From positions 1 to 64,000 of the forward strand of contig CANHHA010000002.1 of the NCBI GenBank assembly GCA_947460825.1: 64,000 nucleotides of DNA, read 5' to 3'. The DNA comes from Flavobacteriales bacterium (GTDB lineage: Bacteria > Bacteroidota > Bacteroidia > Flavobacteriales_D > Crocinitomicaceae). The notes beneath the pieces are model-generated. The model was not told where the DNA came from. It saw only the letters and a program-made list of their open reading frames with translations, and ran no database searches. Position numbers and translations under genes: made by a program. This document shows positions 9,222 to 42,822 of the stretch, one piece after another (position 1 is the stretch's first letter; the number at the start of each line of letters is the position of its first letter).

Positions 9222-12200
9222 CTATGTTTTTTTCCAATGCATTGGAATGTCATAATGACTTATCCCCTTCGCTAAAGAACTTAGGGTGTATGTTCCCTGC
9301 GTCAGTTTGCTCCAATCTGCTATAGCTTCTTCATCAAACCCTTCCGGACAATAATATAGCGTAACATCACTTGTTATCTGCCCCACTTGCACGTATTCTT
9401 CGATCATTTCTTGATGAAGCGTTAAGTACTGAGTGATTTGAAGTTGATGTTGTTCGTCTTGTGCTAATTTCGTTGCGTATTCATGCAGTGCAGGATGCAG
9501 TGTGCGATTATAAACCGGTTCGTATCGTAACTGCGCAGGTTTATCCCAAATCACTAATTCTTTGACTTTCACACCCCGTTGTTCTAAGAGTTTAACCACT
9601 TCGTATGCAATTAACCCTCCCATCGAATAGGCAATTATGCGGTCGATCGTTTGCGGGATTTCCATGCGTTGTTGGTGGTTTTCCATTAAGTAGGCTGCAA
9701 GTTCTTCGATTCGCTTACCTCCCGTTTGGTAACCCAATGCCCGCGGATAGTTAAACGCCAAGGCCTTGTGTCCCCTTGTAATGGGGTACGTATTGAAGAT
9801 CAAACCCAATCCGAAAATTGGCGGGAAATACCATTCATGCCCTTGTTCACCTTCCTGCATTTCCCAGAACAGTTCATTAGTGTTTACCTGGACGTCTGAT
9901 GCGATATGCTCATACGTGGGGTCTCTAAAGAATGCTTGAATAGATATGCGCTTATTCAGCGTTTTTTCTACTTCTTTTAAGAACATTAATGCCTTTAATG
10001 AAGTTCCTCCCGATAGGAAAAAATCATTTCCAGCATTCAATCCTAGGTATTTTTGCCATAAGGTATTCAAGGCCTCATGCGGGCGAGACCGCGCTGGTTG
10101 ATGCGTGGAAACATGTTCCGCTAAGGTATACGTTGAACGTTGAATATTTCGTGCAACCAGTTCATAAAGATGCTGTTGGAATTGCGCTTGAATTGCGCTG
10201 ACCTGAAGGGCTGTAAAATACCCCTCATCGAATTCCCAACGAAGTTGAATGTTGTCGCCTAAGGTATCCACGTATAAACTCAATGGAAGTCGTGGACGAG
10301 ATTCTTGCGTTACCTCCGTCACCGTTCCTTCCGCGAGTTCCGTGGGGTGTTGAATTACTAAGCCCACTTGATGATAGCGTTCAGGTGAACATTGAGCAGG
10401 GTAGCTTATGACGGAATGTTTATGTCGATATAGGAATTCCAAGGCCGCATTCCCTTTTGATAACTGTTCTGAGATTTCTTGGCTTGTATCCATCGGAAAA
10501 GGAAAGGCGCGCATATACATGCCAATGCAAGGTTCATCTCGGGTATCCAGCACAAGCGATAACCACGAAACCGGGATTTCACAGGCAGCTAACGCAGTTC
10601 CAAGTAACGTAGCATAAATCACCGCGGGGCTTGTGCGCCATTGCGCTTGAAGGCTCTCGATTTGCGCTTTATCCGCGGCACTTAAGGTAACAATTAGGTT
10701 AGGGCTGAGGTCATTTGTTTTCCTACCAGGAATGACTTTCGGAGGCGTCGATAACTCGAAGTAAGGTCTCCATAATGGAACTGTTGGGCTTTTAATTCTT
10801 TGAGGAAGCGGCGATACCGGTGATCCTCCCTGCTGAATTTGATGGAATAGTTCAGCTAAAGCCGAATCCGATCCACCATCATATACGATGTGATGCGGAT
10901 TAAAATATAGTATTGTGCTATCTCCAAGATCTATCAACTTGGCGATAAATGAAGGACCTTGGGTTAAATTGATCTGTTCATGATAACTTCTTCGTTTAAA
11001 CGTTGCTAAAGCATCTCGATTGATCGATAGGGTCTCCAGCGTGTAGTTTTCTGAACGGATAGGGAATTGTTTCAATACGCCCTCATCCGATAACTCAAAG
11101 CGCATAAATAAGGGAGTGCAAGCCTTTAGTGTTTTTTCAATAAGCGCGAAAAAGGATGCATTTTGTTCGGGCAATTCAATAAAGTGCGGTAAATTGTAAA
11201 GGCTCGAATCTTTTTGCTGAATTTCAAACCAAATTGCCTCTTGGGCTGCATTGGCTAGTATATATGCTAAGGGTAATTCAGAAACTTGGGGTAAAGGCGT
11301 ACTCAACATGACCGCTTGTGCCAAGCTTGAGAAGTCCGGCGCAGCGAACACTTGAAAAACTTGGAGTTGGTCTGGGTTGATTCGGTTCCATTCCCTCACG
11401 AAATACATGGCGTCGAAACTAGAAAGACCTAGGCTAAAAAAATGGTCTTCGGCTTGTATCTCTCGATTGAATAGCTGTTTCAGAAGTTGCTGCATGCGTT
11501 CAAAAGCATCGCCGTCTACTGCTAAGCCATCAACACGTTGAACCTCCTTTTCTGCTTGATCCACCAAGGGGGTGACATTTATTTTTCCATTTTGATTCAT
11601 TTCATATGCCTCTACATGTATCCATGCGGATGGCACATAATAGCTTGGATAACTTGAGGCGAGTTGCTGGATTAGCTGCTGCTTTTCTTCCGATGTTAAG
11701 TTCCCCTGGTAGGCAATTCCTAATTCACTAGAATATCCGGATTGAAAGCAAAACGCAACCCAGTGTATGCTTGAATGAATGCTGCCGAATATGCGTTCCA
11801 CTTCGTTTAATTCTAGGCGTTGTCCCCTGATTTTTACCTGCTTGTCAGCTCTTCCTATGAAATGAAATTGTCCAAATTCGTCCTTTACGCCGCGATCGGC
11901 TGTGATCCATGGCCCCTCGGAATGACTCCAACCTTGGGCTTGATAATACCCTAAGCCAACACACGGACCATCAATACACAGCAATCCTTCCATTCCGTCG
12001 GGAAGTGGCTTGCCCGTTTCAGTGCAAATGCTAAGTGTTGTATGATGCATGGATTCCCCAATAGGAACTACGGTATTGCTATGGTATTCCGTGCGCCACG
12101 TGAAAAAGGAATTATCGATGGTTGTTTCCGATAGGCCATAAGAACTTATTACCTTGGTTTGAGATGGCATCATGTCCATTAAGGCCTTCATTTCACCAAT

Positions 12201-15200: not shown

Positions 15201-16949
15201 GGCAATAACGCCAAAATGTTCCTGCGCTCGCCAGGGAAGTTTTTCTTTCCACGCATTCAAAAATGAAACAAGGTTTGCTATGGATAATTGCACCACCTTA
15301 GGCGTTCCCGTACTTCCTGAAGTACAAATTGCCAAAGCAACCTCGGGATTTATTTTTTGGCTAGCAGGAGAAATCGAGCTAAGATCCAGCGTGTCTAATG
15401 ATATATAGGATAAGAGCCGATGGTCTGGATAGGCAGTGAAAATTACGTCGGGTGCACATTGCGCATAAAGCGAGGTAATAAAGTCATCGCTTTCCTTTTC
15501 GTTAACCATAAGTACGGTCGTATTCGCTTTCCATGCGGCCAACATAACCAGATCCATGGACGGATGCTTGTCGCCATAAATCCATATGCGCGAGGTGTTA
15601 TTCACCTTGAATGCCTCAATGAGTTTATGATAGGATTCAATCCGATGAGTTGCAATGAGCCCTTGTTCTATGTCTTCAAAAAAACTCGCTACATCAATAG
15701 ATGGATAGTTGTTGGTCTTAAAAGGGCAGGTATTTCTTATCGGTTTATCAAAGCGTTTCTGGAACGTCGTTAGGTAATCCATATAGGCCATCGAAACGGT
15801 TTCTATTTGACTAGGGCTGTGTATGGATGGGTTGAAATGCCATTGAAAATGAAGCGATTCGTCTTCCGGCGTGATGGCGAGACTTAAAGGAAATTCCGTG
15901 AAGTCATAACTTTCTAGTAACTTGAATGTTGAAGCCGCAGCATCGAGTTGTTTCGTTAACGGGTAATTCTCAAATGCGATTAGGAAATTGAAAGAAATCC
16001 CATTAAACTTTGAATCGGTAATATCTACATATGGAAAGGAAGCGATGCTCCGTTCACGTGATTTAAAGGATGAGATGAGTTCTTCGGGGGAAGCATCCAA
16101 GGCAGCCTGAAATTGCAACGGCAAGGTTTGAATTGCTAAGCCAAAACCGTGAGTAACTTGTTCAATGAGTCCGTTTTGTTTCACTACGCCAAATTGAACC
16201 CTTGGATTATTAGTCCAGCCGGCAATGAAACAACTCCAAGTGAAATTGATATATTCTGCCTGCGTTAATCCAAGCGATTGCGCGAATTCCCGAACCACCG
16301 GAAGGGGAATTTTCGTGGAATGTTCTGAAAGTCCCTCCAAGCCAGCACCAATTTCGGTCAGTTGGGCAACCGATTCGAAGGGTAGCAAGTATGATTGGTA
16401 GGCTGCTTGAGCCATTTCATGGTTAAGTGCTTTCCACCTTTCGTACCAGGCTTTAATGGTGCGTTGTGGTAAAAAGAGGTTCGGTGACGACAACAGTTGA
16501 ATAAAATCTGTTAAAAGTTGCTGTCTTCCCCACCCATCAAATAAAATGTGATGGTTAGTAATGAGTAGGATGGATTGTTTCGGCGTTTCAAACCAATCGA
16601 ACCTCAGTCCCGGTTCTTTTTGTAAATCGAATCCCTTATTTCTGATGGAAAGGATGTGTTGACTTATGGCCGATTCGGTGCACTGACAAGAGGTTATTTG
16701 AGGTTTTGAATGTTTTAGGCTTACCCATACGGCTTGCTTCAGGCCTTCATATAATATATGGGCTCTCAAGCACTCATACGTTTCAATCAAACTTGAAATT
16801 CCACGCGATATTTTTTCAAAATCAGTGTCGCGTACTTCAAAAACTAATTGTTGAATATATTCCGACGTTTTTCCTTTTAGGCTCGCACTGAGCATGAACT
16901 GTTGCGCGGGGAGCAGGGGAACAATCGATAAAATATCTTCTTTATTCAT
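9222..16949 (-). CDS. NRPS: C-A-T-C-A-T-C-T-TE, terminal synthetase
   Basis: This 2575-residue synthetase is the last in the assembly line. Domains by motif: C1 (HHILFDG, ~132); A1 (TSGSTGTPK, ~542); T1 (Ser ~910 in GFNSID); C2 (HHGLLDG, ~1078); A2 (TSGTTGVPK, ~1463); T2 (Ser ~1841 in GLSSFD); C3 (HHIVYDG, ~2020); T3 (Ser ~2315 in GGTSLK); thioesterase (AYSMGG, ~2440, with a His near ISHYD). The A2 code reads D-V-G-E-I-G-S-I-D-K, the known ornithine code. A1 reads D-I-A-H-M-G-F-V-L-K, resembling the hydroxyphenylglycine code D-I-F-H-L-G-L-L-C-K. The last module has no A domain, so T3 must be loaded in trans or skipped. The TE releases or cyclises the product. The start overlaps the previous NRPS stop (TAATG), which suggests coupled translation. 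Confidence 0.95.
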   Translation of the reverse strand: MNKEDILSIVPLLPAQQFMLSASLKGKTSEYIQQLVFEVRDTDFEKISRGISSLIETYECLRAHILYEGLKQAVWVSLKHSKPQITSCQCTESAISQHILSIRNKGFDLQKEPGLRFDWFETPKQSILLITNHHILFDGWGRQQLLTDFIQLLSSPNLFLPQRTIKAWYERWKALNHEMAQAAYQSYLLPFESVAQLTEIGAGLEGLSEHSTKIPLPVVREFAQSLGLTQAEYINFTWSCFIAGWTNNPRVQFGVVKQNGLIEQVTHGFGLAIQTLPLQFQAALDASPEELISSFKSRERSIASFPYVDITDSKFNGISFNFLIAFENYPLTKQLDAAASTFKLLESYDFTEFPLSLAITPEDESLHFQWHFNPSIHSPSQIETVSMAYMDYLTTFQKRFDKPIRNTCPFKTNNYPSIDVASFFEDIEQGLIATHRIESYHKLIEAFKVNNTSRIWIYGDKHPSMDLVMLAAWKANTTVLMVNEKESDDFITSLYAQCAPDVIFTAYPDHRLLSYISLDTLDLSSISPASQKINPEVALAICTSGSTGTPKVVQLSIANLVSFLNAWKEKLPWRAQEHFGVIAHPAFDIGVAELIFPLWQGWKSTLITKEILANADELIRTFDEITAFHMVPTLLAQWIDTVPSDQKPRIIMTGGDRVPPSIQSSLKRKFPGAILFQFYGPSECSVLTSGFENKGQFPQERLPLGTPFSNASIHIVTPELRPCSPFEEGEIVISGPAVGLGYANETSEAFFTVNDEPAYRTGDRGLVDTDGHLYFRGRTDQQIKINGQRIELTRIEQALIQWSKIERWCIVYKTPILSAFYLGNAEQLPPKDGLFALLPAYAIPQLIEGLKEFPTNKNGKIDHGALGLYVDRLVANQPVKTLAVEYLEIFEAIFPGRKIDATLGWFANGFNSIDAMKLSGKIKKTLEKNIPIQAILTCMHLAQIPSLMEAGGLEQSIPITSGMKVHEAAARMFFLSESDAQFAKTYWIHSGFILPYDAHFEEFLSAWIKAQEVLALRVESTKAAYYWTAGNISCSRLEADCSASFIAAMEARDHSPFEHLIYIYYTPLADEILVGFSIHHGLLDGLGTQQLFSALFKDYTADAIVPLVLVEPETEPVDVQFWKPYLENVTLHKLPFERIQKNQGSARIKIKLTAKQQEKLRDWKAEFACSTFEAGLIGWIRHWHRYFPESTFSTGIIVSTRSAWNDHELVAMSSNSLPFVVRTDNPQDILTDWKTLQQKAKQPFADIAALETNKQHQGTPFFNTSFVYNQWEAEQGVKPLHTTATESAFDVSLDFMEEGNQLYFQWEFNPRKFSLEAMQQFHNNYFQECVAVEEYSIAQANSLTQQWQYVVEQFGERPAISQGSLTLTYAELNREIQGIQALNAGYNAGIVPLLLERNPHHIAFLMALLLDGIPFIPIDAETPNERLQLIAARCGNPIHDANELHVVRGEQQAIDSTLCYAIATSGTTGVPKLVGVKRSGYEAALVAWTEQYEIKSTDRILQAASFSFDVFLGDLGRALFNGACMVLLDAYQRKDPQYILDVIKSERITLFETTPLVVRWWMQEKSLDLPNLRLLIVGSDSWKIGEMKALMDMMPSQTKVISSYGLSETTIDNSFFTWRTEYHSNTVVPIGESMHHTTLSICTETGKPLPDGMEGLLCIDGPCVGLGYYQAQGWSHSEGPWITADRGVKDEFGQFHFIGRADKQVKIRGQRLELNEVERIFGSIHSSIHWVAFCFQSGYSSELGIAYQGNLTSEEKQQLIQQLASSYPSYYVPSAWIHVEAYEMNQNGKINVTPLVDQAEKEVQRVDGLAVDGDAFERMQQLLKQLFNREIQAEDHFFSLGLSSFDAMYFVREWNRINPDQLQVFQVFAAPDFSSLAQAVMLSTPLPQVSELPLAYILANAAQEAIWFEIQQKDSSLYNLPHFIELPEQNASFFALIEKTLKACTPLFMRFELSDEGVLKQFPIRSENYTLETLSINRDALATFKRRSYHEQINLTQGPSFIAKLIDLGDSTILYFNPHHIVYDGGSDSALAELFHQIQQGGSPVSPLPQRIKSPTVPLWRPYFELSTPPKVIPGRKTNDLSPNLIVTLSAADKAQIESLQAQWRTSPAVIYATLLGTALAACEIPVSWLSLVLDTRDEPCIGMYMRAFPFPMDTSQEISEQLSKGNAALEFLYRHKHSVISYPAQCSPERYHQVGLVIQHPTELAEGTVTEVTQESRPRLPLSLYVDTLGDNIQLRWEFDEGYFTALQVSAIQAQFQQHLYELVARNIQRSTYTLAEHVSTHQPARSRPHEALNTLWQKYLGLNAGNDFFLSGGTSLKALMFLKEVEKTLNKRISIQAFFRDPTYEHIASDVQVNTNELFWEMQEGEQGHEWYFPPIFGLGLIFNTYPITRGHKALAFNYPRALGYQTGGKRIEELAAYLMENHQQRMEIPQTIDRIIAYSMGGLIAYEVVKLLEQRGVKVKELVIWDKPAQLRYEPVYNRTLHPALHEYATKLAQDEQHQLQITQYLTLHQEMIEEYVQVGQITSDVTLYYCPEGFDEEAIADWSKLTQGTYTLSSLAKGISHYDIPMHWKKT

Positions 16950-19900
16950 TAGAGGCCATTCAATAAGTCTTCGATTGCATTGCGGTCTTCCAGGTCAATC
17001 GAATCATCAACATGGGCTGAAATCGAGGAGGCGGCATTCAGTTGGGTGCTGGCGAATAATTGAAATGCATTCATATACGAAGTTAAATTAAATGAAGGAT
17101 GTGAACGCATCATCCAACGGAGTTTTCCTTCCACAATCATTGCATTTATTTCTACCTGAGCTAACATGGTGTTCCCCAGATCAACCATTTCTCCTTGCGA
17201 AATCATGGAAGGACTTGCGATTCCTCCCCAATTTTCATCAAAGCTTCCCAAGAAATTTAATAAAAGCGGATAGCACGGTTGTGCATAATCCGCGCTTCCC
17301 ATGTAGGTGAGTTGATAAGCAATCGCCTCTTCATAGGAACCACGAACGTGAGTTAATAATTCATCCATAGGGATTTCAGGCTCAATATCAATGGGATAAA
17401 ACTGCGTAAACCAACCCAAGGATTCCGCTAAGCTTGGAATGCCTTCATAGGATCGTCCGTGGGTTTCAAGCATGGGTGTAGCAATAGGAAGGCCTTCCCT
17501 TATCCATGCACCAAGTACAAAAAAGAGAAATTTTTCATTTACGTGAAGGTTCGTTTCCCATTGCCGCATAAATAAATCAGTTTGTTCCTTCTCCCAATCA
17601 AAGGAAACATACAACGATTCACGATAAGAACTTGGCTGCCAATCCTTAAATGGATTTAAAAGCGAGCGCAGTGGGCTTGTCTCGGATTCAACCTTATTTT
17701 TCAGCACCTGTTGAACCTGAGCGAATACCTCGGTCCCGCCATAGGTCATTCCATTTCCTTGCATTCTGTTTTTTAATTCATCAAGTAAAATTCTCCATGA
17801 AAATCCGTCGCAATAGAAATGATGCATCGCGATGAAGAGCAAGGTCTTTTCTGCTACGGTCATTATTGCGGCGCCTGCAATTGGACCGTTTGTTAGATCA
17901 AATGAAGATTGAATTACTTGACAACATGCGGTTACTTCTTCGGTTGATGCGACATGTTCAATGACGACGGTTGGGGGTTTTCCACCGCTCCAAGTTTCCC
18001 CGTACACTTGACTCAAAAGCGGAAATGCAGAAAATGTAGCAGCAACTAGGCTACCGAGTTCTTCTGGGGATACGGGGATGTGAATTTCAAGAAGTATGGA
18101 TTGGTTGAAATGATTTTTATTGCCTGGATATGCCGATGTGAACCAATGCTGAATAGGAGTTAGTGCTAATTCGTTACTTCGGACTTCCACCTTGTTCGCT
18201 GTTTCAATGCCTTGGAAAAATTCAGTTAAGGTATTCGCGTTGAGTAATTCGTTAAGTTGGGCTTCATACCCCCAGGCATTTAACTTACCAATCATTCGTA
18301 AGCCTAAGATGGAATCCCCACCTTGTTCAATAAATCCGTATGCCCCGTTCAGGGATTCAAACAATTGGATTTCCTTTAGTTTTTTTAATAACTCCGTTGA
18401 TTGGTCCACTCGATGCTCTTCGCTATCCATGCTTGTTTCAACGAGTTGTATCAGCTTTTTGTCATCAATTTTACCATTGCTGTTCTCAGGAAATTCAGCA
18501 AGCAATTGGATGTGGTCGGGACGCATATACGCGGGAAATTTCTGTAATAAAAATTCCTTGAACGCTGCGATTGAACTGTTGGTGTCAGGATGTTCGATAA
18601 AAAGGATGAACCGATGATTGGCAACTACATAGCGTACGCGGCTAACCTGAATGAACGTTTTGAGTATGCCGGCTTCAACTTCGCCCAATTCAAAGCGTTG
18701 TCCTAATCGTTTTACTTGACGATCGGTTCGGCCTTTTAAATATAGAAGCCCATTGCGTTTGCTGCCAAAATCACCTGTTCGGTAATACTGTTTTCCATGT
18801 TGAGTGTAAAAACCGCCTGAGGCATTGAGGTAGCCCCGTGCCACGCCTTCCCCGCCAATGATGAGTTCTCCTTCGATTTCATCGGGCACCTCTTGAAGCC
18901 GCGCGTTACATACTCGAATTTCTTCATGCGCTAACGCTACACCAATGGCTGGAATAAATTCGTTCGTTAAATCAATGATGGATGAATAGGTGGTAGTTTC
19001 TGTCGGGCCATACCAATTTTTAATAGCTAAGGCTGGATTGGCAGTTTTTAAGTGCATCCACAAGGACTCACTAAACGGTTCTCCTGCGCTATGCACTACA
19101 GCTAGTTGCTTTATTTCATGCACTTGAAGGCGAGAGAGCACGGAAGGCACGGTGTTTAAAAGACCCGATGGGAAATTTGATATAGCCGTTTCAAGGTCAG
19201 ATAAACTCGGAACAACCACGATCGGTTTTCCAATGTAAAATCCGTACAAGTTCTCAAATAAGGAGAGGTCAAATCCGAGGTTGGTTAAGCTAAAAATGTG
19301 ATTGACATTTGATGCATTTACATGCACAAGGCATGCATGAAAAAAAGCGGATAAATTCTTATGACTTAAACTGACACCTTTTGGATTACCCGTTGATCCC
19401 GAGGTAAAGAGAACATAGGCTTCTTGTTGCTGCGATAATTCAGTTAACTGCTTGTTTTCAGATGATGTAAGAATTTCATCCAAAGAAAGGCTTGGAATGT
19501 TAGGGGTCTTGCTTTCTAAGGATTCTAAATAAATCAGTGCTTGGCATGAGGCGATGTCTAACACCTGTTCGATCCGATCTGCTGGCCAACTTGGATTAAT
19601 GGGTACATAGCTGTAGCCTGAGCGCATGATGGCATAAACTAAGCTCGGCGTATAAGCGCTTTGCGCTCCCATGAGTGCAATTCGACTGCCTTTTTCGTAG
19701 GGCGAAAGCACCTCATTTACTTGATGAACCAACTGCAAGGTTGTCTGTGCATGTATGGATTCTTTACTCACCCCATGTGTTGTGTGCATGACTCCATCTG
19801 CTAGCTGCCGATCCACTTCCTTTGTCCAATGCGGGAAATGATCACTCGGTTCGGCCTTTGAGGTGTGTGTTTGGTTAATTAATGGTTGATCCAAGTCTGA

Positions 19901-23653: not shown

Positions 23654-23658
23654 AAGTA

Positions 23659-23826
23659 TCAATTTAATGTTACATATTTCAGGAATTCATTTGCAAACAT
23701 AAATCTACGTGGTACTTTATCCTCAGTTGTCATCATTGAAAGACTACTGGGAATATCCAGGTTAATTTTACGAGGAATAACTAAATGATTTAAATCTCGA
23801 GAAATAAAGTTGTTAATAATTTTCAT
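23659..23826 (-). CDS. Small hypothetical protein (55 residues)
   Basis: An ORF of 55 residues starts MKIINNFISRDLNHLVIPRK and ends with stop TGA at 23659-23661, five nt before the ATG of the racemase-like gene. It begins 31 nt after the stop of the upstream dioxygenase gene, so it fits the operon spacing. It has basic and hydrophobic residues but no Cys and no clear signal peptide. I do not recognise it. It could be a real small gene of the cluster or a remnant; codon use looks ordinary for the AT-rich segment. Confidence 0.45.
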   Translation of the reverse strand: MKIINNFISRDLNHLVIPRKINLDIPSSLSMMTTEDKVPRRFMFANEFLKYVTLN

Positions 23827-30670: not shown

Positions 30671-30679
30671 ACCTAATAG

Positions 30680-30714
30680 CAAACTTACGGATTCAAATGA
30701 TTCAATTACCTTTG
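30680..30714. promoter_or_regulatory. Divergent promoter boxes between WbsX and amine oxidase genes
   Basis: The 48-bp gap between the two start codons contains a perfect TAnnTTTG box on each strand. TAAGTTTG (30680-30687) points to the WbsX operon on the minus strand, and TACCTTTG (30707-30714) to the amine oxidase on the plus strand. Each box lies only 5-10 nt before its start codon, so both transcripts would have almost no leader. No good -33 element was seen for either. Confidence 0.4.
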
Positions 30715-32568: not shown

Positions 32569-33394
32569 TTAGGGAAACTAAGTCTAAAGCCAATCGCTCC
32601 ATCAGCTGGTAATTCAAGGTAAAGGGTAGGTCTTTCGAGGTATGGTAGTTTGAATTTCTAAACATTGCCGTATCCGTGATCATAAGCGCCGGAATGTTAT
32701 GGCTCCAATAGTTTTTATGGTCTGACCAATCCAGTCCTGAAAGTTGAAAGGGTAGTATTAGTTTTCTGTAAAATGACGGATTACACCCTTGAAGATGCTT
32801 CATGATTTCACGGGCTATTTTTCTCGAATTGCGGTTACTTACGCCCAGTAGAAAGTTGCCTTTATTACCATAAATCCACTTCAGGGGCGAAAACGGGTAG
32901 TGTTGACTGTTGGGCTCATTGCTAAAATACCCCACCATTTCCAAGCAAATCATACATTTTATATCCGCTGGATTCAACCGTGCGGCATGCTTGTAGCTCC
33001 CCATATTTTTTGTACCAAAAAACGGTGGTTCTTCGCATGCATAAAACACAAATTCCCAACTGTATGCCAAGGGTTCGCTTGGGGAGATGTTTTTTAATAC
33101 GCCTAACAAAACGGCCACTGCGCTTGCATTATCATCAGCTCCCGGTGTATCTTCGAAGGTGTCATAATGTGCGCCAAGAATAAAGGTTTCTTTTGATTTC
33201 CCTTCGATCCGAACGATGAAATTTTTAAACGTGCGTCCGAATTCATCTTTCCATTCTTGAATGTGAACCGTATGCGTTAAATTAATCAGGTATTCCTCTA
33301 TGATTCCCATGATTTCATGCCACGTATCTCCATTGGCATTTCGAAAGGAAGGAAGTGCTATACGATGTACAATATCTGATAAATAGGTTCTCAT
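32555..33394 (-). CDS. M28-family zinc peptidase
   Basis: This is a 279-residue protein with the M28 aminopeptidase metal sites: AHYDT (His76, Asp78), GADDNAS (Asp87), ACEEPPFFG (general base Glu121, ligand Glu122), LEMVGY (~146-151) and NYHTSKD (His ~248). There is no signal peptide, so it probably works in the cytoplasm. Related enzymes include aminopeptidases and glutaminyl cyclases; EEPPF.GT and the compact size leave both open. It starts directly after the stop of the 2236-residue NRPS (no gap), so it is co-transcribed. It may trim a leader residue, release or inactivate the peptide (inference). Confidence 0.85.
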   Translation of the reverse strand: MRTYLSDIVHRIALPSFRNANGDTWHEIMGIIEEYLINLTHTVHIQEWKDEFGRTFKNFIVRIEGKSKETFILGAHYDTFEDTPGADDNASAVAVLLGVLKNISPSEPLAYSWEFVFYACEEPPFFGTKNMGSYKHAARLNPADIKCMICLEMVGYFSNEPNSQHYPFSPLKWIYGNKGNFLLGVSNRNSRKIAREIMKHLQGCNPSFYRKLILPFQLSGLDWSDHKNYWSHNIPALMITDTAMFRNSNYHTSKDLPFTLNYQLMERLALDLVSLIKKG

Positions 33395-36300
33395 TTAAAA
33401 ATCGAAATCGTCAAATAACTCATTGTCTTTTATTTCTGCGGGTTCTGTTCCTTCAAACTGAAGCAGTTGGTTCTTCCACGTTTCAAAAATCCGTACAGCA
33501 TGTGGGTTCTCGACGGAAGCATAACAAGAAACCTCGATATGTGTCAAATAATCAATGAATTGCCATTCGTACGGATATTTAGTGAATATCGGTTCTTGAA
33601 TTTCAATTTCATTCACCCATTGTGCCGGTATTTCAGTGATCATATAATTGAACACAATGTCGGTGTTTAATGTTGCCTGTGATTCGATGGTTGTACGTTC
33701 TCCCGTTTTCAAGTCAATCTGTACAGGTATGAGCTCGGTAAACATGCCTGGGATTCCAGGATGGTTCGTAACATCAGCCATTGCAATCGTAGCATATTGA
33801 TGGGTTAAGGCTACTGAACGCAGTAATAATTCCCGTTTAGGAAGGTCGTTCGATTCACAATAACTTGAAATCCGGTCGAGCTCATTTTCGGAAATGCGGT
33901 ATTTAAAAACAGTAGCGTTTCTAGTAGCTGTTTCAATGACAAGACCCGTATTTATCGGATGATATTCGATGAGGTGGGTATTGGAATATGTGGCGGGTTT
34001 AAGGTTTCCTTCTAAGTGCTCAATCAATCGGTTTAATACGACATTCATCCCAAGCCCATCCATCAAGAGGTGGTGATAAATAAATTCAATTTTTGTCGGT
34101 TCATGCTTAATGAAACGTATTAATGGGTAGTCCCATCGTGCTAAGTGCTCCGCTGAATAAAGCATAGACGGCTCTTTATTTACTACCCAACACGTTGATT
34201 TAGGGGCTTCCACTTGATTTAATGTATAGGCCAAATAAGGAAATTGAGCGAGTACAGCCTCTACCGCTTCCTTCCATCTGGATTCGGTCAACGGTTCTTT
34301 CAAATGTGCTGTGAAGCGCAGTAAAAAAGGAGAATGGCTGCCCCAATCATTTCCAAGTTCAGTGAGCAGAATGCCTTGTTGTAGGGCGTTTAATGGAAAG
34401 GAAGTTGGTAAATCGGGCGCGTGACTTACCTGTGAATCCTGAATAAGTTGTTCCAATAACTCCGGTGTATTGTGCGATAAGAGCGATTTGACTGAGATAA
34501 AACACCCGGCATTTTTTTCCAGCCAAGCTTGCATTTTCATCAATAAAATTGAATTTCCACCCACATGCTCAAATGCATCGGTCATGTTAAAATTGGCATG
34601 ACCAAGAATAGCCTTCCAACATTGAACACTTAAGCGCGTAGCATCAAGTGGCGCTGCTGCGTGTGTTCCCTGCGCCTGAATTTGAGCTTTTAAGCGCGCT
34701 CGATCCGCTTTGCCGTTGTTATTTATCGGCATTGAATCAATGCGGAAGAATGCGCTAGGGATCATATAGTCGGGCATACGTTCTGTTGCTCGGCTTTTAA
34801 TGGTTTCTATTGAATCATCGGTAACGATGAATGCAACAAGTCGTTGTTCGGAGACCAATACACATGATTGTTGTACCTCAGGTATTTCAGTTAAAAGGCG
34901 TTCCACTTCTAAGGGTTCCACGCGGAATCCTCTAATTTTTATTTGATCGTCTTTACGTCCAATAAAGTGTAAGTTCTCATGTTCGTCTAGAAAAGCCCAA
35001 TCGCCTGTTTGGTAATAGCGTTTACCCTCATGAAACACAAATTTTTCTGCTGTTAATGGAGCGTCATTTAAATATCCCAGTGCGACATGCGCCCCGGCCG
35101 CCCATAATTCACCGGGTAATCCTTCAGGAACAATTTGGTGGTTGTTAACTAACAATATATCCGTATTGGGCAATGCTTTACCAATGGTTGGTTGTGTTAT
35201 CGCTTCATTGGATGTAATGGCCTGTGCTGTGATCACATGGGTTTCTGTTGGACCGTAAAAGTTTAATAAGGTGATTCCCTTGCTTGCAATAAAATGCTTA
35301 AGTTCTTTACCGATAACTAATGCTTCACCGGTGGTAACAATATGTTTAATCGAATCACAATCCGATAGGAAGTGAGGGTCAACCTCCAAGATAGCATTCA
35401 ACACGCGTGCGGGAATCCATGCTAATGAAGCATTAAAACCACGAATGTACTCCCGAATTTGTTGAATATCTAGCCGTGCTTCAAAGGGAACTTCTACTAA
35501 ACTTGCTCCTAAACTCATAGCCAATAATACTTCATGGAATGAGGCGTCGAAACCAAAAGATGAGAGTTGTAGTATTACCTCTTTTGCATCAAACGGATAG
35601 GCTTGAGTATTCCAACGAATTAGATTAATCAAACATTCATGTGTCTGAATTACCCCTTTAGGTTCACCTGTTGATCCCGAAGTGTGTAAAATAAAACTGG
35701 CTTCCTGCGCATGAATAATGGGCTCATTTAATCGCTCTTGAATATGTAGGCTTAGGTCTTCGGACATTACGGTTTTACGTATTCCTGCATTGGTATAAAT
35801 GAAATCCTTTCTTGAATCCGGATAGCGTCGATCTACAGGGCAGGGTACTCCTTGGGCTAACCATACAGCTATGATACTTAATACAAAATGATAGGTAGAT
35901 TTCACATCGATTCCAACCGCTTCACCCGGTAAAATCTGGAGGGAAGAGGATAATAATTTTGCTTCTCCCCAAAGTTGAGCATAGCTAATTGCTCGTTCCG
36001 TTCCTTGAATTAAGGGATGTTTCGAATCGCGTTTTAATAGGTCAAGAATGTTGGTTTCCGGCCGATGAATTTGCGGTCCCTGCAAGCGCTTTGTGCGCAT
36101 GAATACTCCGTGCGTTTGTTCAAGCGGTATATCCCATGGCATCGCACTCAACCACTTCCCAAAGTGATTTAATATATGCGTCACATACAGACTTGCATAA
36201 ATACGGGTATCATGAAGAATAGCCAGTTCAAATCCGTTTTCTTTAGGATAAACAAGCGTTGTCCAAGCAGCACCCGTACGTTCGTTAAAGGTGCCAATTT

Positions 36301-39300
36301 TAATTCCTTTTTCTGAAAGTAAAGAAAAATCAATGGGGTAATTTTCAAAAACAAAGAGGTGGTTGAGTTGATTCTCTCTTACATACGCATTGATCGGGTC
36401 TTGAGTGTGCGTTGCATCTTCTTGAAGCATGTTAAAGATACGTCTTGCATAATCGACGAATGTTTCTGAGCGGCTTACTTGAACATGAAAAGGTAATGTC
36501 CGTATATACATGCCGAGTTCATCCATTGCGCTTTCATCCCGCAGTGAAACCACGTTTCCAAACTGAATGGATGTTTTATCGAACAATACCCCAAGAAAAG
36601 CACTCCATGCAGCCATCATGAAGGCATGCTGAGATAGGTTTTCCTGCCTGATTCTGTCCATTCCTTCAAACGGAATAAATACACTGCTTTTATGGTATTC
36701 CACTTCGTGTGTTCTTGCAGGCAAGGGGGGGACTAACAGTTCTTGTTCCTGAACTTGAACCCGTTGTTTCCAATACGTTTTATTTTTATCGAGCAGAACT
36801 TGTGCACAACAAAACGCAATAAATCCGTCCGAAGAAGCACGTACAGTGCCCTCTAAGGCATCCAGCATTAGTTTACTAAAAACACCCAATGACCAACCGT
36901 CCAGCAATAAATGATGATGTGTCCATACAATGGAATGCGCATGAGTACCGGGGATGATGGTTAAGCGCGATAAATTTTCATGCAGGTCGAATCCCTTGTT
37001 GAAATCCGAAGGCATGAAATGATTAAGGTCATCCCCTTCAAGAATCCGAACCTCAATGCGAGTTTCTGGATGTACTTCAAACAGATAGGTTCCATGTTTT
37101 CTTGTAATTCGTGCGCGTAAAAGGGGGTGGTTTTTACACACGTTTTCATAAGCCAATTGAATTGCTTCTGGTGAAAAGGAATTCGTTATCTCATAGGATA
37201 ATTGTTCCACATACAAGGACTTATTTTCCGCTTTGAGGCAGTCAATTAAAATTCCTTCTTGTGCTTCGAGTAAAGGGAAAAAATAATGGTCAGGCTGAAA
37301 GGGTAATTGGTTTAATTCATGAAAGGCGTGTATGGGATTTTGCTTCGGAGTTGCTTCCTGGTTTTGCTTTGGATTCAACAGGGCAAGGGCAGTTTCACTA
37401 AATAACTCCGGAACACTTAATTCCCAACCTTCTTTTTTTAATCGATTAATTAAGCGAATCGCAACGATACTATCGCCACCATTTTGTAGAAATGAGCGAT
37501 TCAAATCGATGGAAGCCCCCAAAAACTCTTGAAAGATTGCTGAGATTTGATTGGAAGCCACCAGCGGTTGAGCAAGGGGAGTTAATTGTGCGAATAGGGC
37601 CCGTTCATCAATTTTTCCACTTTGGTTTAGGGGGAATTCTGACACATACACAAAGCTTGAAGGGATGGCGTAGTCCGCCAGTATGCCTCGAAATTGGTCC
37701 GGATTCAGCGTGTTCGTGTCACCTTTGTAAAATGCAATTAATTTGTCCTGTGCAAAGAGTACAATGAAATCGCATTTCGCGACATGCTTTTTTAATAAAT
37801 ATTCGATTTCACCCAACTCGATGCGGAAGCCCCGAATTTTAACTTGGCGATCTCGTCGACCGAGGTAATAATACGAATCCCCAATTTTCCAAGCAAGGTC
37901 GCCAGATTTATAGTGCCGCCCGAGTTCATTCTCGGCGAATTTTTCATCGGTTAATAATGGGTTTTGATAATAGCCATTGCAAACCCCGTTCCCATAGACA
38001 TAAATTTCCCCAAGAAATCCCGAAGGAACCATGGTTCCAGCCGCATTCATCAAGCAAACCTCATAACCGGGCAGGGCCATTCCAATATTACTTTGGAGTT
38101 CGGGTTGGACCTTGTTAAACGTAACATGTACAGTCGTTTCTGTTATTCCATACATGTTGACCATAGTCATGTTTGGATAGGTGTTCATCCAAGAAGTTAA
38201 GCGGTTGCTTTGTAATTTGTCTCCTCCAAAAATCACATAATCGAGATGGCTAAGTTGCTTAAGGTCTTCATCCACCAACATAAGATTGTAAAATGATTTT
38301 GGTGTCTGGTTCAATATATTAACCTGCTTTTCTATCAATAACTTATGGAATCTGAAGGTGTCTTGAACTTCTTTTCTATCGGGGATATAGAGTGTAGCCC
38401 CATTTAACAAAGCGCCCCAAATTTCCCAAGTTGAAAAATCGAACCCATAACTGTGCGCTAAAATCCATCGGTCCTCAGGCTTAAATGAAAACAGCGTATT
38501 TGTCCCCTCGAAAAGGTTCAATACATTTAAATGATTGACTGCGCAGCCTTTGGGTATGCCCGTGGTACCCGAGGTATAAATTAAATAACACGTATCGGTG
38601 AGCTCGCTATTGCTCCGATTGAAATTAGCATGCTCGCTTCGTTTTGTAGGGTCGATTATCCGTCCGTTGAAGCTTGGGTTTAGATCTGAAATGATCACCT
38701 CAATTCCGGCATTTTCAATAATAAATGCGCGACGATCTTCTGATACCGTGGGGTCAAGTGGAACGTAAATCCCACCACATTTTAGAATTGCGAGAAATGA
38801 AATAGGTATGGAAGCTGAATAGGAAGTATGTACACCCACGCAGGCACCTTTGTGGATGTTTAACACACGTGCTAATCGGTCTGACGCGTCATCTAATTCC
38901 CTATAATTCAAGACGCATCCGGTATGATCTTCTACGGCAATATGCTTTGGGAAGTGTTGAACCATTTCTTCCCAACGTGCAAGTATGGAGTGTAGCCGTG
39001 GTTTATGCGGAGTTAAACGTAGTTTTGGTACACTGTTTATTGTGAGTGCTTGAACGAACGAAGTGCAAATTTCAACGGCTGCAGCTCGGTCAATTTTCTC
39101 AAGATTCCAGCAAAAGTTAACGGTGAGGTTATTTCCTTTAGGACTTAACACAATCGTTAGTACATAGTGTGGCTTGGAATAAAAATAGGCTTCAATCTCG
39201 GAGTTAAGGGTCGGTTCAACAACCCAACAATGATCAAACGCATTTTGTGTATAATGGTCTTTTACCCAACCGGTCGCTTGCGCTTTAATTGCTTGCCTTG

Positions 39301-40105
39301 TTTGCGCTAATTGTTCAGGGCTTAGGTCTGAATGGATTCTTATCGGCCACGTTTGCACGAAATATCCCAAGGCTGTACTGGATTCAATGGATGCATCCCT
39401 AGCAGAGAACACCTCTCCAATAATGATTTCCTCTAATCCCGATGCTTGTTGTAGATACTTTAGCCATTCCAACATAAATGTTTCATAAGACACATTTTGT
39501 AATTCAAACGATTCCCTCACATATCCTTTTTCAGGCACTGCAGGAGGAGGAACTAAACGCTCCAAGCTGAATGGAGTAAGCTCAATTTTTTCAGCTCCTA
39601 CGGATTGTGTTTTCGGATTCCAATCCGAAAAAGTGAGGATTGAATTTGAGTCCAGTGCGGACAAGGCAAGTTGAACTGAAATTCCATCAAACAAGAGGTG
39701 ATGATATACTAAACAAAAACACTGTCCAATCCCTGTTTCAACGAGATATATATGGAATAAGGGTGGTTTTTGCACATTAAAGGTATGGTCTTGCGCAAGA
39801 ATCCAAGAATTTACTTGGGAAACATCCGTTAATTCAGGCTTATTTGCTAAGGTTATTGGGTAAATTGAATTTTTTAATCGAATTCTAAGGGGATTGGTCT
39901 GCTCATAGAAGTAACAATCTTTTAGACGTTCAATGGAATCAATCCAGCGCTTGACATCACCTTCGCTTAACCGTTGATTCGTTAACTCTAGTATAGCATA
40001 TTCTATATAGCTATAGGTGTCATTGGTTGATTGAAAAACCAAAAGGCTTTCCTCGATGGGGGTCGTTTTAAAGGCTTTTTGTATATCGTCTTTAGAAAAA
40101 TTCAT
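33395..40105 (-). CDS. NRPS: C-A-T-C-A-T-C
   Basis: This is a 2236-residue synthetase. Domains by motif: C1 (YHHLLFDG, ~133), A1 (TSGTTGIPKG, ~509), T1 (GGDSIV, ~877), C2 (HHHLLLDG, ~1062), A2 (TSGSTGEPKG, ~1474), T2 (GGNSILL, ~1850) and C3 (YHHLLMDG, ~2009) with an acidic tail FDDFDF. The A1 code reads D-F-W-N-I-G-M-V-H-K, the standard threonine code. A2 reads D-A-H-A-V-T-F-V-I-K, which I do not recognise. The final C domain has no A or T after it in this protein; the next synthetase starts with a partial C and a T, so a module without an A domain is split across two proteins. The start overlaps the previous NRPS stop (TAATG). Confidence 0.95.
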   Translation of the reverse strand: MNFSKDDIQKAFKTTPIEESLLVFQSTNDTYSYIEYAILELTNQRLSEGDVKRWIDSIERLKDCYFYEQTNPLRIRLKNSIYPITLANKPELTDVSQVNSWILAQDHTFNVQKPPLFHIYLVETGIGQCFCLVYHHLLFDGISVQLALSALDSNSILTFSDWNPKTQSVGAEKIELTPFSLERLVPPPAVPEKGYVRESFELQNVSYETFMLEWLKYLQQASGLEEIIIGEVFSARDASIESSTALGYFVQTWPIRIHSDLSPEQLAQTRQAIKAQATGWVKDHYTQNAFDHCWVVEPTLNSEIEAYFYSKPHYVLTIVLSPKGNNLTVNFCWNLEKIDRAAAVEICTSFVQALTINSVPKLRLTPHKPRLHSILARWEEMVQHFPKHIAVEDHTGCVLNYRELDDASDRLARVLNIHKGACVGVHTSYSASIPISFLAILKCGGIYVPLDPTVSEDRRAFIIENAGIEVIISDLNPSFNGRIIDPTKRSEHANFNRSNSELTDTCYLIYTSGTTGIPKGCAVNHLNVLNLFEGTNTLFSFKPEDRWILAHSYGFDFSTWEIWGALLNGATLYIPDRKEVQDTFRFHKLLIEKQVNILNQTPKSFYNLMLVDEDLKQLSHLDYVIFGGDKLQSNRLTSWMNTYPNMTMVNMYGITETTVHVTFNKVQPELQSNIGMALPGYEVCLMNAAGTMVPSGFLGEIYVYGNGVCNGYYQNPLLTDEKFAENELGRHYKSGDLAWKIGDSYYYLGRRDRQVKIRGFRIELGEIEYLLKKHVAKCDFIVLFAQDKLIAFYKGDTNTLNPDQFRGILADYAIPSSFVYVSEFPLNQSGKIDERALFAQLTPLAQPLVASNQISAIFQEFLGASIDLNRSFLQNGGDSIVAIRLINRLKKEGWELSVPELFSETALALLNPKQNQEATPKQNPIHAFHELNQLPFQPDHYFFPLLEAQEGILIDCLKAENKSLYVEQLSYEITNSFSPEAIQLAYENVCKNHPLLRARITRKHGTYLFEVHPETRIEVRILEGDDLNHFMPSDFNKGFDLHENLSRLTIIPGTHAHSIVWTHHHLLLDGWSLGVFSKLMLDALEGTVRASSDGFIAFCCAQVLLDKNKTYWKQRVQVQEQELLVPPLPARTHEVEYHKSSVFIPFEGMDRIRQENLSQHAFMMAAWSAFLGVLFDKTSIQFGNVVSLRDESAMDELGMYIRTLPFHVQVSRSETFVDYARRIFNMLQEDATHTQDPINAYVRENQLNHLFVFENYPIDFSLLSEKGIKIGTFNERTGAAWTTLVYPKENGFELAILHDTRIYASLYVTHILNHFGKWLSAMPWDIPLEQTHGVFMRTKRLQGPQIHRPETNILDLLKRDSKHPLIQGTERAISYAQLWGEAKLLSSSLQILPGEAVGIDVKSTYHFVLSIIAVWLAQGVPCPVDRRYPDSRKDFIYTNAGIRKTVMSEDLSLHIQERLNEPIIHAQEASFILHTSGSTGEPKGVIQTHECLINLIRWNTQAYPFDAKEVILQLSSFGFDASFHEVLLAMSLGASLVEVPFEARLDIQQIREYIRGFNASLAWIPARVLNAILEVDPHFLSDCDSIKHIVTTGEALVIGKELKHFIASKGITLLNFYGPTETHVITAQAITSNEAITQPTIGKALPNTDILLVNNHQIVPEGLPGELWAAGAHVALGYLNDAPLTAEKFVFHEGKRYYQTGDWAFLDEHENLHFIGRKDDQIKIRGFRVEPLEVERLLTEIPEVQQSCVLVSEQRLVAFIVTDDSIETIKSRATERMPDYMIPSAFFRIDSMPINNNGKADRARLKAQIQAQGTHAAAPLDATRLSVQCWKAILGHANFNMTDAFEHVGGNSILLMKMQAWLEKNAGCFISVKSLLSHNTPELLEQLIQDSQVSHAPDLPTSFPLNALQQGILLTELGNDWGSHSPFLLRFTAHLKEPLTESRWKEAVEAVLAQFPYLAYTLNQVEAPKSTCWVVNKEPSMLYSAEHLARWDYPLIRFIKHEPTKIEFIYHHLLMDGLGMNVVLNRLIEHLEGNLKPATYSNTHLIEYHPINTGLVIETATRNATVFKYRISENELDRISSYCESNDLPKRELLLRSVALTHQYATIAMADVTNHPGIPGMFTELIPVQIDLKTGERTTIESQATLNTDIVFNYMITEIPAQWVNEIEIQEPIFTKYPYEWQFIDYLTHIEVSCYASVENPHAVRIFETWKNQLLQFEGTEPAEIKDNELFDDFDF

Positions 40106-42822
40106 TAGCGGTTCAAAATTCCAAGGATATCATCCATGTCAATGTCATCAATATTGATTTCATGCGATGAGTCACGTTCGTCTTCCGAATTTTCTTCTTC
40201 AAGTAAGGTTTTTATAAATGGCTTGGCCATAACTTTTTGAGAAGAAATTACAATTCCATTAATCGTAAGCTCATTACAAAGAGAAAGCAAATCTATACTA
40301 TTCCATCCATATGCAAGCAGAGAATCTTCCGAATCACCGTGTGTTTTTTCAAAAGATTTTAAAACACGGTAAACGTTCTGTTCTTTTTCTGTTGCATTAG
40401 GTTGCCATGGTTTCTTGGATTCTCGTTGGATTGGAATCTGTTTACTCAAGGTTTTCTTATCGATCTTTCCATTTTGATTTATAGGCCAAGAGGTATTAAA
40501 TTGAATAAGATCTGGTTGTTGGTATGGTGGAATATGTTTGGATAAATATGCCCTTATCTCGGGTTCGCTTAAGTTAAGTTCATGCAGTAATACACTCACG
40601 CCGTCCATTTCAAGCACACAACATTGTGTTAATACTTCGAGTGAAGCGATTAGATATTCTATTCGTCTTGCCGGTATTCTTTTCCCATTTACTTTAATGA
40701 AGTCATCTTGCATCCTTCCAGAAATTATGAGTCCATGGATCGGATGGATGAACGCTCGGTCTCCCGTTATATAGCTAAGTGTTCCGTCTTCATGCGCAAT
40801 GTATCGTTCTGATTTCGATAACGGAGTGCCAACGCACGCGCCTGAAATGTGTAATTCTCCCCAAATACCCATCGGAACGATATGTCCGTTTGGTCCATGA
40901 ACCGTAAATTGCTGATCACCGAGCGGAGCTCCAAGTGGAAATTGATGATTCATTTCAAGAAGCGGGTATAGCGCAGAGTCAATGCTTACTTCGGTTAACC
41001 CATAGCTGTTATAGATCTTAATTCCTTCCAACTTCGTAATTGCTTTATACAAAGAATGCGTCATGGCTTCTGAACCACAAATTAAATGGCTTAACCCTTC
41101 CAGTTTTGGATTGTTTTTAAGGATGAGTTGTATAAAAGAGGGCGTGGATTCAAGATGGCTAACTTGATGCTTCGTGATGAGTTGATTAATGAGAAGTGGC
41201 GATAAGCGTTCGCTTTCTGTTGCAAGAACTAAGGTGCTTCCGAGAAAAAGGCTTCGGAATAAATCTCCGAAAAACACATCAAATCGCATGTCTGCAAGAC
41301 TAAGATGTACTGCGTTTTCATTAATGTTTAAGCGATTTTTCCAATCAAATAATAAGGTTTCAATACCCGCTTGCTGTATTAAAATTTGTTTTGATTCTCC
41401 GGTACTTCCTGACGTTTCAGCTAAATAAAGAAAATGGCCTGCAGGCATTTTAACTTCTTTCGGTTTGGTAAAAGAAATTATTCCGCCATGTTTCCATTGC
41501 TTAAGGATCATTACAATGGTCTCTATGCTTCTATTTGGTGATAAAAATAACATAGGGGATTCCTTTGGTTCTGTGCTTATTCGTTTTTTGAGTTCCCCGA
41601 ATGTTATTTTTTCATCAGCACATATAATCGCTGTTTGATCATCATTTGCCTTATCAAATAGACTCCAAAATTCAATGTTGTTTTTTTGATCCTTACTTAA
41701 TTTAGCCTCGGGTAAATTTAGTTCGGGCTCTTTGCCGTCAAGCAGTGCTAATACGCCATGCAAATAAGCGTTTACGAAGCATCGCCAAAACGATAAATCG
41801 GCAAGGTCCGTGCGCACGTCGAATGAAAGACGAAGTGACTCTTCTCCAAATTCCAGGACATGCATCGAAATAATATTCTCATCCACTGAAGTGGGGAGAA
41901 AAGTAAAGCTTGCCTGAAGTTCGTCGGTATTTTTCTCATACGCTTCTTTCTGATATGAAAAGAGTGCATTGAATGCCGTACGTTTTCGCTCCTCGGCTAA
42001 CCATGTTAATAAAGGGTATTCTTGATTTCTAAAACAGTTTTTTATTACGGCATCCAATTCGCTTATTTTGGAAATCGGCACGTGGCTGACGGGAAGAAAA
42101 TTTACGCGCGTCAAAAAATCCTGCTTCGCAATTTTACCACTCCTGTTACGCAATGCCATTCCGGTTTGGATTGGAAAACCAAGATGGGTTTCAATTCCAT
42201 CAAGGTAATGCTGAAAACAACCTAATAAAAGGGCAGAAAGATTCAGTTGCAGTTCCTTACAACGTTGAGATATTTCTTTTTTTCTGTTGGGTGAAAGATT
42301 AAATGTAATTCGCTCTATTGGACCTAATCCCATTGGTTCAATGGGTTTTAATATGCCTAAATCAATCCTATTTGATGAGATTTCAATACCTGCCTTATTT
42401 TCTGATGTTCTTACAGGTTCTTTTCCTTCATAAATACCCTTGAGGTCTTCCCAAAATAGTTGAAAACTATGCGCATCAGCTAACACATGATGCAAACAAA
42501 GTTTGAGCGTTATTTGATCATTAATTTGGTAAAGATTGATGGCCCATAAGCAACTAAGGGATAATTCGGGTCCTTCAGTTTTATTGAGATTAAAGATTCC
42601 CCTTTGGTTTTTATCAATAACCCAAGACGTCAAGTCCTCGCTTAATTTTAAATAGGGCCAAATACGCTCTTTTAAAAGTAAATCAACAGATTGGGCTAGC
42701 CGATCAAATGACGCATGTTTTATTTCAGCAATTCCAACCAATTGATTGCTCAAGGAGCTTCCGAGGGCTTGTTCTTGGCGAATAAATAATTCTTGATATG
42801 GAAGCACCTTCATGGGGAGCAT
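40105..42822 (-). CDS. NRPS: C-A-T, loading module
   Basis: This 905-residue synthetase is the first of the line. Its C domain has HHVLADA (~110), where the usual HHxxxDG ends in Ala. An A domain follows (TSGSTGESK, ~469), then a T domain (Ser ~840 in YGWNSIDL). The specificity code reads D-V-G-E-I-G-S-I-D-K, the known ornithine code, as in the 2575-residue synthetase. A C domain at the front of the first module often acylates the first amino acid, so a lipopeptide is possible but not shown. The acidic C-terminus (INIDDIDMDDILGI) looks like a docking peptide. The ATG lies 20 nt after the stop of the CotH-like gene, leaving little room for a promoter. Confidence 0.94.
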   Translation of the reverse strand: MLPMKVLPYQELFIRQEQALGSSLSNQLVGIAEIKHASFDRLAQSVDLLLKERIWPYLKLSEDLTSWVIDKNQRGIFNLNKTEGPELSLSCLWAINLYQINDQITLKLCLHHVLADAHSFQLFWEDLKGIYEGKEPVRTSENKAGIEISSNRIDLGILKPIEPMGLGPIERITFNLSPNRKKEISQRCKELQLNLSALLLGCFQHYLDGIETHLGFPIQTGMALRNRSGKIAKQDFLTRVNFLPVSHVPISKISELDAVIKNCFRNQEYPLLTWLAEERKRTAFNALFSYQKEAYEKNTDELQASFTFLPTSVDENIISMHVLEFGEESLRLSFDVRTDLADLSFWRCFVNAYLHGVLALLDGKEPELNLPEAKLSKDQKNNIEFWSLFDKANDDQTAIICADEKITFGELKKRISTEPKESPMLFLSPNRSIETIVMILKQWKHGGIISFTKPKEVKMPAGHFLYLAETSGSTGESKQILIQQAGIETLLFDWKNRLNINENAVHLSLADMRFDVFFGDLFRSLFLGSTLVLATESERLSPLLINQLITKHQVSHLESTPSFIQLILKNNPKLEGLSHLICGSEAMTHSLYKAITKLEGIKIYNSYGLTEVSIDSALYPLLEMNHQFPLGAPLGDQQFTVHGPNGHIVPMGIWGELHISGACVGTPLSKSERYIAHEDGTLSYITGDRAFIHPIHGLIISGRMQDDFIKVNGKRIPARRIEYLIASLEVLTQCCVLEMDGVSVLLHELNLSEPEIRAYLSKHIPPYQQPDLIQFNTSWPINQNGKIDKKTLSKQIPIQRESKKPWQPNATEKEQNVYRVLKSFEKTHGDSEDSLLAYGWNSIDLLSLCNELTINGIVISSQKVMAKPFIKTLLEEENSEDERDSSHEINIDDIDMDDILGILNR

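Follow-up and report, generated by a model that had tools for sequence, protein, structure and literature searches.

A nonribosomal peptide synthetase cluster with a putative arylglycine pathway of its own in an uncultured Flavobacteriales bacterium

Peptide antibiotics such as those of the vancomycin and ramoplanin types have 4-hydroxyphenylglycine (Hpg) as a key residue, and the pathway to Hpg has been described from actinomycetes. The nonribosomal peptide synthetases (NRPS) for ramoplanin and enduracidin incorporate Hpg, ornithine (Orn) and threonine (Thr) residues and have a module lacking its own adenylation (A) domain, which is served by a separate protein made up of an A domain and a peptidyl carrier protein (PCP). 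The last module of the syringomycin synthetase SyrE also lacks an A domain and has the order condensation (C) domain-PCP-thioesterase (TE). Formadicin, a beta-lactam of the Hpg type, is said to come from a Flexibacter; our literature search found no paper on formadicin together with Flexibacter or nocardicin. In the vancomycin group the enzymes HmaS, Hmo and HpgT lead to L-Hpg, as outlined in PMC10991500. The window analysed here (the whole stretch of 64,000 nucleotides, positions 1-64000 of contig C2 in a Flavobacteriales genome of 2.66 Mb that is 98.2% complete) contains an NRPS cluster with four synthetase genes, in which all 11 C-domain matches of the genome fall. Judging from its genes, the cluster probably makes a nonribosomal, probably N-acylated peptide together with its own arylglycine, most likely Hpg, which the first module of NRPS D (D1) would load. 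For a hydroxyphenylglycine NRPS cluster of Bacteroidetes or Bacteroidota, no paper was found in a literature search that excluded MIBiG and most subscription journals; papers matched on hydroxymandelate in flavobacteria deal, to judge by title, with metabolic engineering.

Gene identities were taken from Pfam and NCBIfam profile matches, and the domain order of the synthetases from custom profile models and Pfam. The four NRPS genes lie on the minus strand, A and B on one side and C and D on the other side of the tailoring and cassette genes. The cassette, also on the minus strand, consists of a class I/II aminotransferase (AT; Aminotran_1_2, 27482..28564), an Fe(II) dioxygenase of the HPPD superfamily resembling 4HPPD and HmaS (named HmaS here, 26403..27485) and a GlcD-type FAD 2-hydroxy-acid oxidase or dehydrogenase (FADox; FAD_binding_4 and FAD-oxidase_C, 25223..26416). 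These are followed, on the same strand, by a phosphopantetheinyl transferase of the ACPS superfamily (PPTase, 24606..25226) and a PhyH-family oxygenase (PhyH oxygenase 2, 23858..24616) with an HRD motif seen by eye and an ectoine-hydroxylase-like match below the cut-off. The overlaps measure 4 nt between AT and HmaS, 14 between HmaS and oxidase, 4 between oxidase and PPTase and 11 between PPTase and PhyH. An earlier note, made from the sequence by eye, had placed four synthetase genes around this operon with overlaps of 4-14 nt, and the analysis bears out both its genes and its coordinates.

In the proposed pathway AT would convert Tyr to 4-hydroxyphenylpyruvate, from which HmaS would form 4-hydroxymandelate. 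The GlcD-type FAD oxidase would then give 4-hydroxyphenylglyoxylate, and AT would act again, producing Hpg by transamination for loading by module D1. The earlier note had likened these reactions to those that make Hpg in actinomycete glycopeptide and ramoplanin clusters. Likeness to the actinomycete HmaS-Hmo-HpgT route holds for the three reaction types and for the superfamilies of the aminotransferase and the dioxygenase. It does not extend to the oxidase, which is of the FMN type in the Streptomyces cassettes whereas that of the window is a FAD enzyme of the GlcD type, nor to HmaS, which is only about 25% identical and forms a separate clade in a Bacteroidota host. That an arylglycine pathway feeds an Orn/Thr-containing peptide is nevertheless well supported by the active-site residues of hydroxymandelate synthase (HMS) type, the conserved AT-HmaS-oxidase operon and a second cluster, in genome G541.

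The active site of HmaS was compared position by position, with residues numbered on the human HPPD chain. Complete Flavobacteriales HmaS sequences were found at 12 loci (own, G236, G272, G155, G257, G096, G252, G256, L050, L051, L055 and L057), the partial copies G252:C79, G145/L058 and L059 being excluded from the counts. All 12 retain the His/His/Glu iron ligands. The position equivalent to Phe364 is V (10) or I (2) in these proteins, I in five of five AT-linked Streptomyces HmaS and F in 17 of 17 HPPD, and that equivalent to Asn241 is V (11) or S (1), I (4) or V (1), and N in all 17, respectively. At the Ser226 equivalent the 12 proteins have M, the HPPD have S and the Streptomyces proteins have S (3) or I (2). 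Of the 17 HPPD, 12 lack annotation; they come from genomes of the order, including the present one, and were taken as the housekeeping gene. The other five are from a plasmid collection, where two bear the label hppD. As HmaS of three Streptomyces loci are likewise annotated hppD, such labels settle nothing by themselves. HmaS of the window has Val at both the Phe364 and Asn241 equivalents; it thus lacks the two residues kept in HPPD and has an HMS-type active site. The corresponding Phe424, Asn282 and Ser267 of Arabidopsis, which we matched by motif to human 364, 241 and 226, are described in PMC6750108 as mattering for HPPD, and the F337I variant of Streptomyces avermitilis HPPD (human F364) is described in PMC3739788 as also forming some hydroxymandelate. 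A separate HPPD with F and N is encoded in the same genome, which rules out HmaS as the housekeeping HPPD.

A search of 299 genomes of the order found HmaS relatives (61-98% identity) in nine, counting the one studied here, although G145 has only an 87-residue piece at a contig end. For the FAD oxidase (E up to 1e-70), 399 genomes of the order gave 11, these nine among them. A scan of a genome collection with two N-terminal patterns gave 13 loci, all of them metagenome-assembled. Ten are labelled Flavobacteriales, Flavobacteriia, Bacteroidetes or Bacteroidota, and one each Chryseobacterium gleum, Saprospira grandis and Candidatus Planktophila lacus, the last label being judged ill-fitting. Several sample names suggest lakes (Lac Pavin by name), and the hosts may therefore live in fresh water. 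The oxidase directly follows HmaS at 12 of the 12 loci and AT directly precedes it at 10, the contig of G256 starting 179 bases before HmaS. C domains were found in all eight relative genomes searched; in G155 NRPS B lies about 50 kb away from the rest of the cluster.

The AT-HmaS-oxidase order is also found outside the order. When 395 genomes of the phylum were searched with the window HmaS (E up to 1e-55), eight matches appeared: the own protein, one in G541, a genome of the same class and another order, and six more. At the Phe364 and Asn241 equivalents G541 carries I and V, whereas the six (L080-L085) keep Phe and Asn and were rejected as HmaS. AT, HmaS and the GlcD-type oxidase of G541 stand in the same order as in the window and are 28%, 39% and 28% identical, respectively. 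Around them (L090-L091) are NRPS genes and a protein judged ketosynthase-like by eye; these synthetases differ from those of the window. Moreover, two of the six readable A domains of G541 have the near-canonical Hpg-type code DIFHFGLIFK, which agrees with the canonical Hpg code DIFHLGLLCK at 7 of 10 positions. With G541 HmaS as the query, 395 genomes of the class gave 44 matches, mostly of 37-40% identity. One, in G888, reached 79%; five other matches examined have an HPPD-like end (GNF). G888 carries these genes on an NRPS contig (L107-L108); identity to the G541 proteins is 58% for AT and 77% for HmaS.

GlcD is the best NCBIfam match of the window oxidase, below the cut-off, and the lactate dehydrogenase subunit LctD is its best solved relative, with aligned HAGDGN and GEHGIG stretches. 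It does not belong to the FMN_dh family of the canonical pathway, to which the oxidases beside HmaS in Streptomyces angustmyceticus (L069) and S. chartreusis (L068) belong; the oxidase of Streptomyces NBC_01435 (L072) is 49-61% identical to both. AT is 25-27% identical (E 8e-23 to 4e-27) to the aminotransferases of these three loci, which were taken as HpgT by their position beside HmaS. We propose AT as a Tyr/hydroxyphenylglyoxylate aminotransferase and FADox as a hydroxymandelate oxidase. The Streptomyces plasmid loci L069, L068/L111 and L072/L112 all carry cassettes with HmaS, oxidase and aminotransferase, the last two near NRPS genes with Hpg codes. On plasmid p1 of S. angustmyceticus (L069 5992-12638), the Hpg-type cassette includes an FMN oxidase, PhyH, an aminotransferase and a prephenate dehydrogenase.

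The synthetases would run in the order A, B, C, D, ending in the TE. NRPS A (40105..42822, 905 aa) has the organization C-A-PCP, with the motif HHVLADA in its C domain; it is probably the first module and its C domain is possibly of the starter type. NRPS B (33395..40105, 2236 aa) reads C-A-PCP-C-A-PCP-C. In NRPS C (16949..21868, 1639 aa) an N-terminal stretch of about 190 aa is followed by a PCP, C, A, PCP and a terminal epimerization (E) domain, and NRPS D (9222..16949, 2575 aa) reads C-A-PCP-C-A-PCP-C-PCP-TE. All four are on the minus strand. Two of the eight carrier domains are therefore without an A domain. One, the first carrier of C, has a serine motif and fold matches in its favour; the other, at the end of D, has a Pfam PP-binding match. 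The stretch before the former looks like the C-lobe of a condensation domain by eye; its model (mean pLDDT 71.7, pTM 0.59) gave carrier or weak condensation domains as best matches, none at E 0.001.

Binding-pocket codes were read by alignment. The A domain of C has the code DLFNHAWTYK, which we take to be Ala-like as it agrees at 8 of 10 positions with the Ala code DLFNNALTYK; neither the latter nor DIFHLGLLCK was in any paper found by literature search. The code of A and of the second module of D (D2), DVGEIGSIDK, is read as Orn in PMC3992020, and that of B1, DFWNIGMVHK, is given among the Thr codes in PMC12283262. The second module of B has DAHWVTFVIK and D1 has the Hpg-like DIAHMGFVLK. The four codes that the earlier note had read by eye (Orn twice and Thr once, all exact, and one Hpg-like) are correct by alignment. 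Its peptide of Orn, Thr and arylglycine was incomplete, and it had missed two A domains (the B2 module and the Ala-like module), the E domain that follows the latter, both carriers without A domain, a racemase-fold protein, two PhyH oxygenases and the GlcD type of the oxidase. The product would read Orn - Thr - X - ? - D-Ala - Hpg - Orn - ?, with question marks for carriers that one of the six A domains would load in trans.

The codes are kept in 16 of 17 A domains of relatives (four in G236, six in G272, four in G155 and three in G257), with I/V and F/Y exchanges only. Since the proteins themselves are 38-82% identical, the pattern of the cluster is not due to chance. The one exception is found in NRPS C of G272, where the code is the Asn-like DFTKIGEVGK. 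In this protein (L032-L033) the domain stands in the place of the Ala-like one and is flanked by about 250 and 330 aa of extra sequence, which suggests a module swap.

The cluster shares the predicted residues Hpg, Orn and Thr and a module without A domain with those of ramoplanin and enduracidin, and its terminal C-PCP-TE with SyrE. However, the former have 16-17 carriers compared with eight here, two of them without A domain, and neither the separate A-PCP protein of ramoplanin and enduracidin nor a SyrB1-like A-PCP partner was found in the genome. Apart from those of the cluster, just three PF00501 matches at E 0.001 were seen in the genome, and none of them shares a contig with C domains; an A-PCP helper protein encoded elsewhere in the genome was ruled out by this search.

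Several observations weigh against Hpg as the product of the cassette or as the residue loaded by D1. The code of D1 agrees with the canonical Hpg code at 5 of 10 positions, and in a tree of A domains D1 did not group with Hpg A domains, so that its assignment is drawn from the pocket. In G096 the gene before HmaS is NRPS A and not AT. No GlcD-type oxidase was found on the 34.6 kb contig of G888 carrying AT-HmaS, and of seven A-domain pieces of G888 four gave a full code, none of them Hpg-like, and three were unreadable. Among the five Streptomyces loci, NBC_00726 and NBC_00887 lack an Hpg code in the four domains read of the neighbouring NRPS, and an FMN oxidase is absent from their feature lists; for S. 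angustmyceticus the features listed over the 35 kb read include no NRPS gene. HmaS scores 133 bits against HPPD and 89 bits against the solved HMS 2R5V. Moreover, GlcD-type enzymes usually act on D-hydroxy acids. Known HmaS is described as giving S-hydroxymandelate (PMC3720870, PMC13111500), hence either HmaS of the window makes the R form or its oxidase takes the S form. The earlier suggestion of an Orn/Thr/arylglycine peptide is thus partly borne out: it is supported by the HMS-type residues, the operon and G541, and qualified by the GlcD-type oxidase, the separate HmaS lineage and the partial code of D1, which does not group with Hpg A domains.

The cassette might make another aromatic unit, either unhydroxylated phenylglycine or 4-hydroxymandelate or 4-hydroxyphenylglyoxylate as an acyl or depsipeptide unit, with AT supplying only the keto acid from Tyr or Phe. 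The sequence does not settle the substrate range of HmaS, and at two Streptomyces loci HmaS and AT are present but no Hpg code was read. In addition, Hms is described as promiscuous towards phenylpyruvate analogues (PMC3720870) and human HPDL as forming 4-hydroxymandelate for another purpose (PMC13111500). We consider this unlikely, because D1 has His278 and the pattern D-I-x-H-x-G, which is found in the Hpg codes of a positive control in which the same script read two Streptomyces loci (DIFHLGLLCK four times and DAFHLGLLCK once in S. chartreusis, DAYHLGLLCK once in NBC_01435). Furthermore, the same cassette stands beside the DIFHFGLIFK domains in G541, and AT is next to HmaS at 10 of 12 loci. 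DAMHLGCTFK and DILHLGCTFK are also named as able to take Hpg in PMC12283262.

The pathway could also be real with D1 loading a different residue, the arylglycine going to the carriers without A domain or to the B2 module. This fits the partial match of D1 to the canonical code, the presence of two such carriers and the lack of a code assignment for B2. It is an even less likely arrangement, given that D1 alone among the six A domains of the cluster has the D-I-x-H-x-G pattern and that none of the three PF00501 matches outside the cluster lies on a contig with C domains. That HmaS is an HPPD paralogue making homogentisate for tyrosine catabolism or a pigment, its NRPS neighbourhood being incidental, is very improbable, as its best PDB and NCBIfam matches are indeed HPPD (4HPPD, 214.5 bits, under the cut-off of 277) but both diagnostic residues are lost in all 12 members, a separate HPPD is present, the oxidase follows HmaS at 12 of 12 loci and C domains were found in 8 of 8 relative genomes searched. 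Synthesis of Hpg by the cassette and its loading by D1 therefore remain the preferred reading.

The Bacteroidota and Streptomyces HmaS have a mean identity of 25%. A tree was built of 47 proteins. In it the 14 HmaS of Bacteroidota fall into a single group (100/99), joined to six HPPD-like proteins of Bacteroidota (100/100), and the five Streptomyces HmaS form a group of their own (100/100), so that HmaS of the window lies outside the actinomycete HMS lineage. A tree forcing the two HmaS groups together was worse by 37.6 log units (p-AU 0.0077), with long branches and uneven composition flagged, a small sampling and tested groups that were defined once a first tree had been seen. The alignment kept the diagnostic columns, and these should draw the two groups together. 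The tree omits L098, which is out of frame, and the long-branched protein of Ca. Bandiella numerosa, which was present in the first tree. HmaS in Bacteroidota and in actinomycetes probably arose by convergence, as far as these sequences tell. A recent gain of an actinomycete cassette was ruled out by the low identity, the separate clade and the different oxidase. A fuller account is possible, though on balance doubtful: an HPPD-like protein of Bacteroidota became an HMS by losing the same two active-site residues as in actinomycetes and was paired with a GlcD-type, probably R-specific, FAD oxidase, so that an independent arylglycine pathway may run via (R)-4-hydroxymandelate; its Hpg would enter Orn/Thr/Hpg peptides of a new family, made by uncultured Flavobacteriales and by further Bacteroidota.

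If Bacteroidota do have a separate route to Hpg, it would exemplify convergent enzyme evolution in nature and supply another kind of oxidase for the production of D- or L-Hpg. HmaS with V or I at the Phe364 equivalent beside a GlcD-type oxidase also provides a sequence handle with which peptides could be traced in bacteria whose only records here are metagenome-assembled genomes. That the enzyme is a hydroxymandelate synthase through the loss of Phe364 and Asn241 is a prediction that can be checked on one small protein. In the Rickettsiales endosymbiont Ca. Bandiella numerosa (plasmid NZ_CP104165.1, L077 2989-5177), a gene annotated hppD has I at the Phe364 and Asn241 equivalents and adjoins genes for a pyridoxal phosphate (PLP) aminotransferase and for SbnA/SbnB.

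The remaining genes of the cluster are accessory or tailoring candidates. A protein similar to M28-family metallo-aminopeptidases and resembling leucyl aminopeptidases (32555..33394, minus strand) directly follows B, as it does in all six relatives in which that end was read (G236, G272, G257, G155, G719 and L059). Next come an oxidoreductase of the short-chain dehydrogenase/reductase (SDR) family (31945..32568) and a FAD amine-oxidase-family protein (30719..31948), both on the plus strand, and then, on the minus strand, a WbsX-family glycosyltransferase-like protein (29618..30682) and PhyH-family Fe/2OG oxygenase 1 (28617..29627), with an HQD motif seen by eye. All four also occur in G719 and L059, and the last one in G145 too. 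PhyH oxygenase 2 is present in most relatives read and was not seen in G257. A SAM-dependent methyltransferase-like protein (22175..22954, minus strand) is shared with G272, G155, G096 and G252.

The gene at 22976..23662 on the minus strand encodes a protein of 228 aa with an alanine-racemase fold (PLP barrel), proposed as an amino-acid racemase. Its Lys40 is invariant in six sequences. The best fold matches of its model (mean pLDDT 81.4, pTM 0.80) are alanine racemases (E 3e-4, probability 1.00, TM 0.57 by query, 12% identity), and the class rests on this fold together with a weak NCBIfam ornithine-racemase match far below the cut-off. From the model, it is plausible that the protein acts as a racemase for Orn or another residue.

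To the right of the cluster the window (42842-63447) contains CotH, SprB/CHU_C, ankyrin, DOMON, M48, endonuclease I and TonB-receptor genes. Their order is mostly common to G236, which has two extra genes, and the cluster therefore occupies the same genomic place in that genome.

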